A stretch of DNA of 64,000 nucleotides from Haloarcula salina. GTDB lineage: Archaea > Halobacteriota > Halobacteria > Halobacteriales > Haloarculaceae. Under the pieces are notes generated by a model, which searched no databases, was not told where the DNA came from, and saw nothing but the letters and a program-made list of their open reading frames with translations. The stretch lies in NCBI RefSeq assembly GCF_010119195.1, contig NZ_WRXL01000007.1, positions 62,001-126,000 of the forward strand, written 5' to 3'. This document shows, piece after piece, positions 2,356-4,924 of the stretch (positions within the stretch are counted from its first letter, which is position 1; each line of letters opens with the position of its first letter). The position numbers were made by a program, and so were the translations under genes.

Positions 2356-2670
2356 ATGACGACGCTGACGGACTCGCTGCCGGATCGGCCGCTCTCGACG
2401 AACGAGATCTCCGCGCTGGAAGCCCAGCACGACGACTACGGCTTCGCCCCGGTGGGGTTCTTTCCCGACCTAGACGTGGTCGCGGCGTTCGTCGTCATCG
2501 TCGACGGCGAACGGGGCTACAGCCTCGGATTCGACCGCGACGACGAGGGCTGGGTCGTCGTGGAGTCCTTCGACGACGGCGAGGACTTCGCCGGCGTCAC
2601 CGACCGCCTCCAGGAGTGGCTTGGCGACGACTGGGCGGACTTCGAGGAAGGCACGGCCGAACCGGAGTGA
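2356..2670 (+). CDS. Conserved haloarchaeal hypothetical protein (104 aa)
   Basis: A small acidic cytosolic protein ending in an Asp/Glu-rich helix (EWLGDDWADFEEG). The middle has alternating hydrophobic strands (VVAAFVVIVDGERGYSLGF), suggesting a compact alpha/beta fold. No catalytic motif, metal site or membrane segment is visible, and I do not recognise the family. The ATG at 2356 directly follows the run CCACGACGGCACA and no Shine-Dalgarno sequence is evident. It is followed by the tRNA-Gly repeat region. Confidence 0.65.
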   Translation: MTTLTDSLPDRPLSTNEISALEAQHDDYGFAPVGFFPDLDVVAAFVVIVDGERGYSLGFDRDDEGWVVVESFDDGEDFAGVTDRLQEWLGDDWADFEEGTAEPE

Positions 2671-2759
2671 GTCGGTCGGAGTCGCTCGCGCCGCTCGCGA
2701 CGGCTGCGTGGCGTCGCTGGGTCGCACAGTTCGGACTCGTCGGTTGTTTCGACGCAGCG

Positions 2760-2785
2760 TGCGGCGGTCGGGATTTGAACCCGAC
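2760..2785 (-). repeat. tRNA-Gly 3'-end remnant (copy 1)
   Basis: Read on the minus strand this is a T-arm plus acceptor 3' strand ending CCGCCGCA, like the real tRNA-Gly at 2996-3066. One T-stem pair differs (U-A in place of C-G), and the change is compensated on both arms, so this copy probably came from a different functional tRNA-Gly. No anticodon arm or 5' acceptor follows, so it is not a tRNA gene. The pattern fits an attachment-site scar. Confidence 0.65.
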
Positions 2786-2828
2786 GGCGAGACTCGCTGC
2801 GCTCGTCTCGCGTGATTCAAATCCCGCT

Positions 2829-2887
2829 GTACAGCATCCGCTCGTCACGTCCGTTCCTCGCAGGATGCGGCGGCCGGGATTTGAACC
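2829..2887. repeat. 59-bp direct repeat, copy A
   Basis: An exact 59-bp direct repeat of 2959-3017, offset by 130 bp. It begins GTACAGCATCCG, contains an inverted pair GCATCC...GGATGC, and ends inside the T-arm-like segment GGGATTTGAACC. The repeat joins a spacer of unknown function to a tRNA-Gly 3' end, suggesting duplication or repeated insertion at the tRNA 3' end. Confidence 0.8.
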
Positions 2888-2889
2888 GG
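2866..2889 (-). repeat. tRNA-Gly 3'-end remnant (copy 2)
   Basis: A second fragment of a tRNA-Gly T-arm and 3' acceptor strand, identical to the real gene across the acceptor and T-loop but one base short in the T-stem, so the stem no longer pairs well. It lacks all upstream tRNA parts. It sits within the 59-bp direct repeat, 106 bp after remnant 1 and 130 bp before the tRNA 3' end. Confidence 0.65.
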
Positions 2890-2958
2890 ACCAAGACGGT
2901 TGTGCTCGCTCACTCCGTTCGCTGCGCGCACTGCGACTTGTAGGGTTCAAATCTCTCA

Positions 2959-3017
2959 GTACAGCATCCGCTCGTCACGTCCGTTCCTCGCAGGATGCGG
3001 CGGCCGGGATTTGAACC
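2959..3017. repeat. 59-bp direct repeat, copy B (overlaps tRNA-Gly 3' end)
   Basis: The second exact copy of the 59-bp repeat at 2829-2887. Its right part is the 3' end of the intact tRNA-Gly, so the repeat unit includes tRNA sequence. Between the copies lies an inverted T-loop-like sequence, GGGTTCAAATCTC, at about 2943-2955. Confidence 0.8.
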
Positions 3018-3066
3018 CGGGCCATGAGCTTGGAAGGCTCAGGTCCTACCACTAGACCACCGCCGC
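2996..3066 (-). tRNA. tRNA-Gly (anticodon TCC)
   Basis: A 71-nt cloverleaf on the minus strand. The acceptor stem pairs GCGGCGG with CCGCCGC and the discriminator base is A. The D-loop contains TAGTGGTAGGA. The anticodon stem TGAGC/GCTCA closes a CTTCCAA loop with anticodon TCC. The T-arm is CCGGG-TTCAAAT-CCCGG. The 3' CCA is not encoded, which is usual in haloarchaea. It reads GGA codons (and possibly GGG by wobble). Two 3'-end remnants lie just downstream of it. Confidence 0.95.
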
Positions 3067-3198
3067 TCATCGCTTCGCGTCTTCACGGCGGGCCTCGCGA
3101 TTCCTCCGGAATCGCTCACCACCGCCGCGCGCTCACTGTGTTCGCGCGCGGCGAGGATCGCCGGAGCGCGAACGTACTCCCCCATAGAGGGAAGGCGA

Positions 3199-3873
3199 TT
3201 AAGTGCGTTTCCCTTCCGGTTCGACGACGCCGTAGCAGTTGCCGCTGGAGAGTTCGACCGACACCAACCGCAGGTCGCTGGCGGCCACGTCGCGTTCGAA
3301 CTCGGCCGGCGCGTAGACGTGGTAGAACCGGGGAACCGTCTCGCCGCCGGGGAGCGTCCAGTCGACGGTTGTGTCGAAGCCGGTCTCTGCGTCGGCCTCG
3401 GCGTCGAAGCGGTCGTGGGCCGTGCTCCAGGCGCTGACGAGCGCGCGACCGTCCGGCGCGAGCACGCGAGCGAGGTCGTCCAGGCTGGCGCGGCGTGCGT
3501 CTCGCGAGGGGAGGTGATGCAACGTCGCGACGTACACCGCGAGGTCGATGCAGTCGTCGGCCAGCGGCAATTCGACCGCGTCGCCCTGGACGAGCGCGAC
3601 TTCGTCGCCGACGCGCTCGGTGGCGGCATTCAGGAGCGCGCGGCTGGCATCGAGGCCGACGACGCGGTCAGCGACGCCGGCCAGCAGTTCGGCGTGGCGG
3701 CCGTTGCCACAGCCGAGGTCGAGCGCCGTCCCGCAGTCCGTGAACGCGGCGACGAACGACTCGACCTCCGGCCAGGCGTACTCGCGGGTCTTCGAGAAGT
3801 GCGCGCCGATGTCTTCGTAGGTCCGGCGAACGGCCGCGCGCGAGCGGTCGGCGTCCGAGTCACGCTCCGGCAT
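3199..3873 (-). CDS. Class I SAM-dependent methyltransferase, Trm9-like
   Basis: A 224-aa Rossmann-fold methyltransferase. The N-terminus Y-E-D-I-G-A-H-F-S-K-T-R-x5-WP-x-V-x-x-F (about residues 19-40) is the signature of the Trm9/ALKBH8 family, which methylates modified wobble uridines in tRNA. The SAM-binding motif I is ALDLGCGNGRH. Then follow VGLDAS (acidic residue for the ribose), QGDAVELPL and the LHHLPS motif. The gene starts 10 bp after tyrS on the same strand, so the two are probably co-transcribed, and this supports a role in tRNA biology. The exact substrate is inferred, not shown; small-molecule methyltransferases share much of this fold. Confidence 0.8.
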   Translation of the reverse strand: MPERDSDADRSRAAVRRTYEDIGAHFSKTREYAWPEVESFVAAFTDCGTALDLGCGNGRHAELLAGVADRVVGLDASRALLNAATERVGDEVALVQGDAVELPLADDCIDLAVYVATLHHLPSRDARRASLDDLARVLAPDGRALVSAWSTAHDRFDAEADAETGFDTTVDWTLPGGETVPRFYHVYAPAEFERDVAASDLRLVSVELSSGNCYGVVEPEGKRT

Positions 3874-3883
3874 CCCTCCGCGG

Positions 3884-4924
3884 TCACTCCGCGCCGTACT
3901 TCTCGGGGTACGCCTCTGCGAGCAGGTCGCCCTCGTCGGCGAGGTGCTCGCGGACGGGGTCGATGACCTCCGAGATGGCGGCCCCGGCCGAGGGCTTGAG
4001 GTCGGCGGGGTGGAGTTCCCCGCTGACGAAGTCCGCCTCGACTTCCTCGTAGGTCTCGTAAGTCAGGTCGCCGCCGTACTCCTCGGGGCGCTCGACGACG
4101 AACGACTCGTCGCGCACGTCGAGCACCGGGAACACGAGGTGTTCGAGGTACTCGAGGACGCCGTTGCCTTCGACCTCGCCGGCCGGACAGAACGCCTGAC
4201 CGATCTTCTCTTCGACCGTCTCGGGATCGTCCGTGAGGTTGACCTTCGAGGCCTCGTCAGAGGCGCTCATCTTCCCGCCCGAGAGCCCCGAGAGGAGCGG
4301 GGCGAACAGGCAGACCGGCGACTCGCCGCCGTGGTCCGGGAGGACCTCGCGCGAGAGCATGTAGATGCCGCGCTGGTCGACGCCGCCGTAGGCGATGTCT
4401 GCGTCGAGCGCCTTCACGTCCAGCGTCTGCATCAGCGGGTAGATGAGCCCGCCGAGGTTCGGGCTGTCGGACTCGCGGACGACCTCGCTGGCCGCGCGCT
4501 GAGAGCGCGCGATGGTGGTCTCCGCGGCCATCCGGTACATCTCCAGCGTGTACTCCTCGCCGAGCTGGAAGTCCGTCCCGCGGACGAACTCCACGTCCTC
4601 GGGGTCGGCCCCGGCCGCCTCGATCATCCCCTCGATGGCCGTCTCGTAGTAGGCCGAACGGACGTCGAGCAGGTCGAACGGCGACTTGTTGTCGTCGAGG
4701 TGAGCGTGGAGGTCCGCGATGAGCACCGTCACCTCGACGCCGGCCCGCAGGAAGTCCGCGAGCTTTCGCATCGTCGTGAAGTGCCCGATGTGCATCTCGC
4801 CGGTCGGCGCGTAGCCGATGTACGCCGACGGGTCGCCGTCCTCGAACAGTGCCCGAAGCTCGTCCTCGGTGACGACCTCCTCGGTGTGTCGCGTCACCAG
4901 GTCGAGTCGCTCGGCCGTATCCAT
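3884..4924 (-). CDS. tyrS: Tyrosyl-tRNA synthetase
   Basis: A class I aminoacyl-tRNA synthetase that charges tRNA-Tyr. The HIGH motif appears in YAPTGEMHIGHFTT (about residue 46) and the signature loop in SGGKMSAS (about 220). The 346-aa length and the absence of a C-terminal S4 domain are typical of archaeal/eukaryotic-type TyrRS. The segment DVKALDADIAYGGVDQR is the tyrosine-site region of this subgroup. Its start codon is about 27 nt from a TATA-like element at 4947-4954, consistent with a leaderless mRNA. A Trm9-like methyltransferase follows 10 bp downstream. Confidence 0.96.
   Translation of the reverse strand: MDTAERLDLVTRHTEEVVTEDELRALFEDGDPSAYIGYAPTGEMHIGHFTTMRKLADFLRAGVEVTVLIADLHAHLDDNKSPFDLLDVRSAYYETAIEGMIEAAGADPEDVEFVRGTDFQLGEEYTLEMYRMAAETTIARSQRAASEVVRESDSPNLGGLIYPLMQTLDVKALDADIAYGGVDQRGIYMLSREVLPDHGGESPVCLFAPLLSGLSGGKMSASDEASKVNLTDDPETVEEKIGQAFCPAGEVEGNGVLEYLEHLVFPVLDVRDESFVVERPEEYGGDLTYETYEEVEADFVSGELHPADLKPSAGAAISEVIDPVREHLADEGDLLAEAYPEKYGAE

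Follow-up and report, generated by a model that had tools for sequence, protein, structure and literature searches.

The 64,000-nucleotide stretch of Haloarcula salina DNA analysed here (hereafter the window) probably carries, behind its tRNA-Gly(TCC) gene, two tandem members of a haloarchaeal family of miniature, gene-less and non-autonomous integrative elements, and not random scars. The units of this family have a common architecture and a broad distribution, pair with their own tRNA, are precisely gained and lost, and occupy the same site as integrase-bearing elements, one of which, at tRNA-Tyr, shares its right end with a unit. A site-specific integrative element fits best because gains and losses are precise, the tails are att-like, the arrays are ordered and integrase elements occur at the same place; the small and uniform size makes the elements miniature, and the tRNA-Tyr case ties them to tyrosine recombinases.

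The tRNA-Gly(TCC) locus and the anatomy of its units

The original prediction had recorded two copies of the tRNA-Gly 3' end beside tRNA-Gly(TCC), together with a 59-bp exact direct repeat of 130-bp period. Both are present (Table 1): the 22-nt tail copies lie 130 nt (0 mismatches) and 236 nt (1 mismatch) downstream of the gene, and the exact repeat is nested in a 72-nt repeat of 96% identity. The compensated T-stem change seen in the distal copy (GTCGGG-TTCAAAT-CCCGAC) also stands; another tRNA as its donor, which had been suggested, is not needed, as 21 of the 22 letters are those of the tRNA-Gly tail itself. Between the copies, the inverted T-loop-like pieces, for which no explanation had been offered, form hairpins with the copied T-arms, each piece supplying the 5' arm and each T-arm the 3' arm.

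Every unit follows the same order, from a 5' stem with tandem G.A motifs through an inverted (anti) T-arm and a covarying stem with a GA-rich tip to the copy of the tail. Both window hairpins fold better than their shuffles (z -2.5 and -5.3), and the 5' stem of Unit 1 alone gives an MFE hairpin that is not significant (z -0.38). A known RNA family was considered as well; in an Rfam search of window 2400-3300, tRNA alone reaches the gathering score. Matches to R1, a covariance model of the unit hairpin, are listed in Table 1.

Table 1. Features of the tRNA-Gly(TCC) locus in window coordinates
Feature	Position	Strand	Remark
tRNA-Gly(TCC), host gene	2996-3066	-	Rfam RF00005, 71.4 bits
Copied tail, last 22 nt of tRNA-Gly (tRNA positions 52-73)	2996-3017	-	
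Unit 1, tRNA-proximal, 130 bp, interior type B	2866-2995	-	R1 match 2866-2954, 62.3 bits
Unit 1 5' stem, tandem G.A motifs (TCCTGCGAGGAACGGACGTGACGAGCGGATGC)	2964-2995	-	read from sequence
Unit 1 anti-T arm (AGATTTGAA)	2946-2954	-	complements copied T-loop
Unit 1 tail copy	2866-2887	-	22/22 identical to tRNA-Gly positions 52-73
Unit 2, distal, 106 bp, interior type A	2760-2865	-	R1 match 2760-2824, 75.9 bits
Unit 2 5' stem	2834-2865	-	equals Unit 1 5' stem; inside 59-bp exact repeat
Unit 2 anti-T arm (GGATTTGAA)	2816-2824	-	
Unit 2 tail copy	2760-2781	-	21/22 identical, extended T-stem
59-bp exact direct repeat	copy 1 2829-2887, copy 2 2959-3017	.	

Named by eye from the ORF list, a SAM-methyltransferase-like ORF (window 3199-3873, minus strand) adjoins the tRNA-Gly gene, and a tyrosyl/tryptophanyl-tRNA-synthetase-like ORF (3884-4924, minus strand) lies near it.

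All fetched loci together yielded 203 distinct units at 36 tRNA types, taken at 80-180 bp and mostly 100-140 bp long, a set in which units are over-represented, as unit searches supplied many of the loci. Among 60 sampled units, 59 hairpins fall below z -2 against shuffles; the first 40 nt alone do so in only 10 of 60. In an alignment of 28 hairpins, pairing holds in 86% of cells, against 78% in shuffles, and 37 cells show double changes (9.1 when shuffled), in a test whose structure was partly read from the same sequences and in which two inner pairs are mis-registered. Several interior types, among them A, B and C, are found at more than one tRNA: the nearest relative of a unit body lies at the same tRNA in 116 of 201 cases and at another tRNA in 85, and 2 of the 203 have no match. 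An inversion of the interior was considered as well; the search pattern also complements normal units and therefore discriminates little, and the matches compared by strand are in normal orientation. At the tRNA-Ala loci L225 and L181, a short stretch behind some copies ends in a further CCCGGCGAGTCC motif, which suggests decayed units.

Cognate pairing and strand bias

The anti-T arm, present in 178 of the 203 units, follows the tRNA at which the unit resides. Compared with tRNA position 57 under a neutral rule, 181 of 186 units match (131 as A/T and 50 as G/C) and 5 mismatch. The extension into the T-stem forms 3.32 of 6 pairs with the unit's own tail, against 2.85 of 6 (sd 0.07) with the tails of other tRNAs, the excess residing mainly at positions 62-64. 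The pairing is also asymmetric with respect to strand. Non-canonical pairs comprise 51 G-U against 19 A-C, or 42 against 19 once identical combinations are collapsed per tRNA (p 0.004, a value that is indicative only, since p values on units treat related sequences as independent), and the sense strand folds better than the antisense strand in 131 of 178 units. Together, these asymmetries point to a structure on the tRNA-sense strand, be it RNA or single-stranded DNA.

An RNA role is the main rival to the integrative-element reading, although we consider it rather improbable. The unit would be transcribed behind the tRNA, and its hairpin, with a 3' arm that mimics the T-arm of the tRNA, would control pre-tRNA folding, termination or 3' processing, with the anti-T arm free to pair with either the real or the copied T-arm. 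The sense-strand signal speaks for such a host device, as do the cognate fit of the anti-T arm to each tRNA and the nearly invariable placement of units downstream on the same strand. On the other hand, the units are patchy, being found at about half of the tRNAs in sets that differ between genomes, and they are precisely gained and lost; the unpaired acceptor part and the discriminator are copied just as exactly, which base pairing does not require; and no Rfam family corresponds to them. Should the RNA reading be true, it would describe a widespread tRNA-specific 3' trailer device, likewise undescribed in the open-licence literature searched.

Occurrence, gain and loss of units

The integrative-element reading draws on how units are distributed among tRNA genes and genomes. 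Within the window's genome (3.79 Mb), all 42 RF00005 matches were scanned, each with its own last 22 nt as the tail. A cognate tail copy (at most 6 mismatches, within 350 nt) lies downstream of 18 of the 42 genes and upstream of 0 of 42. The downstream copy is free of mismatches at nine tRNAs and has 1 mismatch at four, whereas the best upstream match among the 42 has 8 mismatches in the same 350 nt, which puts the downstream copies beyond chance. The distance from the tRNA to the end of the copy is 100-137 nt, with one case at 292 nt. At the 16 loci with at most 3 mismatches, the edges of identity are sharp, at nt 73 (the last base of the tRNA) and at nt 52.

Beyond this genome, R1 matches 89 of 98 relatives and 70 of the 72 of good quality, up to 37 times per genome. 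In an even sample of the phylum (294 genomes), 51 genomes of the same order match, mostly many times, and two genomes of the order are listed without a match. Outside the order, 11 genomes have a single match each, near E 1e-4; these are probably tRNAs, and tRNA-Gly itself scores 24.7 bits with R1. The three genomes G002, G056 and G094, each from a different family, have 98 of their 112 matches less than 600 nt downstream of a tRNA and on its strand, giving units at 62 of 130 tRNAs in arrays of up to four in tandem; the other 14 are mostly matches at unlisted tRNAs, antisense palindrome readings or units displaced by an inserted element. Across the haloarchaeal genomes surveyed, units stand behind close to half of the tRNA genes. 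It had been argued at the outset that the same arrangement in distant relatives, with no mobile element ever found there, would speak against insertion; the arrangement is indeed order-wide, yet mobile elements are found there too.

Gain and loss were followed across the tRNA loci of the window's genome (G000, 42 loci) and of G005, G011 and G004 (40 loci each); 2, 4 and 4 further RF00005 matches of the latter three, and a tRNA cluster on contig C50 of G005, were left aside. Copies with at most 6 mismatches occur at 18 loci in G000, 25 in G005, 20 in G011 and 16 in G004, and precise empty sites are found in relatives for Tyr, Ile and Gly. The tRNA-Tyr unit is present in G005 alone, and the flank behind its copy abuts the tRNA directly in G004 (38/40 nt) and G000 (36/40 nt), values that compare with a maximum of 32/40 for different tRNAs paired at random. 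Because the same flank directly follows the tRNA in both genomes, the G005 unit is, as judged from these flanks, a precise gain. In G011, a different sequence follows tRNA-Tyr, and the exact Tyr tail occurs at one of its integrase loci. The tRNA-Ile unit is likewise confined to G005, with G011 empty and bearing the same flank (38/40), a probable gain. The tRNA-Gly(TCC) locus, whose inspection in relatives had been proposed as a check, is occupied by units in G000, G005 and G004 and empty in G011 (33/40 of the flank), which by sequence comparison is a precise loss.

Other features of these genomes deserve mention. A tandem duplicate of tRNA-Asp(GTC), with a period of ~124 nt, is present in G005 (L249/L250), G011 (L291/L292) and G004 (L328/L329), and a single gene is listed in the window's genome. 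Many tRNA-like RF00005 matches crowd one strand of ~4.6 kb in G005 (C50:23127-27759), perhaps a tRNA array of viral or plasmid origin. Downstream of the G005 tRNA-Ile, at a distance of 570-716 nt, lies a 147-bp stretch (C23:55589-55735; L239:135-281) that occurs in 22 of 195 genomes of the order, counting G005; identity in the remaining genomes is 70-90%.

The arrays are ordered. Of 41 arrays of at least 2 units, 28 have fewer mismatches in the proximal copy, 4 have more there and 9 have an equal number. In CRISPR arrays and casposon targets, by analogy, the youngest copies are also proximal. A transposase or a Cas1-like integrase cutting at nt 51/52 and nt 73 could leave a 22-nt copy that merely duplicates the tRNA struck; sharp and always cognate 22-nt copies, with the tRNA-proximal ones youngest, are what it would produce. 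We hold this to be very unlikely all the same, since the inserted DNA already bears an anti-T arm that fits the tRNA struck, in the recent Ile case as well, and duplication leaves this fit unexplained; moreover, the enzymes seen at the site are tyrosine recombinases and not Cas1.

Against mobility it must be said that the four genomes give just one clean and one probable gain, that many units are old and inherited (a mutation of the Val-CAC copy, GGTGAGAATCC, is common to several Haloarcula genomes), and that the anti-T loop of the gained Tyr unit of G005 is incomplete.

Integrase elements at the same site and comparison with known systems

Units contain no integrase gene of their own, and at 80-180 bp they are too short for one; integrases reside only in separate larger elements. 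Such elements lie between the tRNA and its units at Tyr in G056 (4.7 kb) and at Val-CAC in G002 (7 kb), each with a tyrosine recombinase that starts beside the distal copy, the two integrases being 47% identical. Further integrase elements occupy the tail site at Tyr in G011 and elsewhere, and relatives of the integrase are found in 33 of 41 genomes. When 30 fetched integrase loci were compared with 58 tails, 9 of them proved to have a match with 0-4 mismatches, located 86-258 nt before the integrase match and in the opposite reading direction. We also considered that the copies might act as decoys diverting integrases from the tRNA and rejected the idea: at loci with both, the element sits between the tRNA and the units, so it had entered at the tRNA. 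At tRNA-Arg(TCG) of G002 (C1:2504000-2506500; L182), a ~0.9-1-kb vapBC-like module with VapB/VapC-like ORFs, named by eye, lies between the tRNA and its units and is bounded by a 13-nt tail copy, forming a toxin-antitoxin-like cassette at the tail site.

At its right end, the G056 Tyr element agrees with the unit behind it over 102 nt (96% identity) and with the Tyr unit of G005 over 62 nt (92% identity), and 14 nt are identical at its left end. Compared by eye, the Ala, Val and Phe elements share no ends with units, and their integrase end gives no R1 match. In several integrase elements, the stretch shared with the tRNA is just ~13 nt long (positions 61-73) and not 22. Given this shorter sharing and the missing R1 hairpin, the link between units and integrases rests mainly on tRNA-Tyr.

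The original prediction had read the locus as the product of repeated insertion or excision, and this survives insofar as the copies are att-like (tRNA positions 52-73) and relatives carry tyrosine-recombinase elements at this very site. Its second half, scars with no remaining element, is not supported: the DNA between the copies is a uniform, structured unit of ~110-130 bp at 36 tRNA types, and hence the unit itself is the entity and not debris. One could still regard the units as immobile remnants of ordinary integrative elements that underwent an internal deletion or excised only in part, a view that we find quite doubtful. The right end and the 14 left-end nucleotides shared by the full Tyr element and the unit behind it are in its favour, as are the repeat-mediated deletion and the 22- and 43-bp partial tRNA duplications at prophages of Haloquadratum reported in the available portion of PMC3119063. 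It does not account for covarying stems, for units alike in size and in module order across 36 tRNA types, or for interior types that cross between tRNAs, and none of the full elements observed combines a standard 5' stem at one terminus with a standard hairpin at the opposite one.

How an integrative unit might move can be sketched as follows. The unit would enter exactly at the 3' end of the tRNA; because element and target would share the tail (positions 52-73), the tRNA would stay intact and a tail would flank the unit on both sides, and a direct repeat of the tRNA 3' end is present at both unit borders. New units would tend to enter beside the tRNA and push older ones outward, and units would be lost by recombination between identical tails. 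The recombinase was probably supplied in trans by the tyrosine-recombinase elements of the same site, and the recombining form may be the sense-strand hairpin, in which a single strand would rebuild a double-stranded T-loop as the recombination site. If so, the need to rebuild this T-loop would account for the required match between anti-T arm and tRNA.

We speculate, as an unlikely prospect, that tRNA genes act as integron-like platforms, at which a tyrosine recombinase inserts folded single-stranded DNA cassettes with the newest unit first. The covariation and the sense-strand bias fit a strand-specific, folded, attC-like site, and they fit an RNA equally. No integron-type integrase was found next to an array, and the two integrases tested match XerC/XerD/XerA-type models far below their cut-offs.

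Carriers of units were sought in several ways. No excised or circular unit was found, and no virus or plasmid carrying one, which had been suggested as a place to look. Viral contigs gave 0 matches to exact patterns that represent two interior types and the 5' stem of the Gly units; two of these patterns match 31 and 59 of 362 fetched loci. BLAST of the 401-bp locus returned one SSV record (the tRNA part) and partial matches in three haloarchaeal plasmids, and BLAST of Unit 2 alone returned no match.

If our reading is true, the units would be the smallest integrative elements known to us, adapted to dozens of tRNA types; they would explain many partial tRNA copies in haloarchaeal genomes, preserve the order in which insertions at tRNA genes took place and offer a test case for folded-single-strand recombination outside integrons and filamentous phages. 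As judged by titles and the beginnings of abstracts, the open-licence PubMed Central literature holds no description of such units that we could find. Partial tRNA copies left by element integration are described for Thermococcaceae, with a remark on other taxa (PMC9897764, in part), and partial tRNA duplications of 22 and 43 bp together with repeat-mediated deletion for Haloquadratum (PMC3119063, in part); the accessible parts of both sources contain no mention of small units.

Several known systems resemble the units in part. Among them are the integrative elements of tRNA 3' ends and their cis-mobilizable derivatives (CIMEs), which are likewise flanked on either side by att copies of the tRNA 3' end, accrete in tandem and have integrase-bearing relatives at the same site. 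CIMEs are kilobase deletion derivatives, whereas the units are gene-less at ~110-130 bp, have a uniform hairpin architecture and occur at close to half of the tRNA genes surveyed. The MITEs, PATEs and SMR elements of haloarchaea are, like the units, short and non-autonomous. They depend on a transposase and make short target duplications; the units lie at tRNA 3' ends with 22-nt tail copies instead. In Escherichia coli, the tyrT repeats, like the units, stand in tandem behind a tRNA, each with a tRNA 3' end, but they belong to one bacterial locus, whereas the units are found at dozens of tRNA types across an order and carry an inverted T-arm hairpin. These 178-bp repeats are associated with the rtT RNA. 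The attC site of integrons is an imperfect hairpin with a variable tip, one strand of which rebuilds a double-stranded core site, and cassettes are inserted at one fixed site with the newest nearest; phage CTX is an analogue of such folded-strand recombination. The units resemble attC cassettes in the imperfect, variable-tipped hairpin that could rebuild a core site on one strand, in the fixed site and in having the newest nearest. They differ in that they use a tRNA gene as the target, carry no gene, and possess a tRNA-adapted site and a 22-nt copy.
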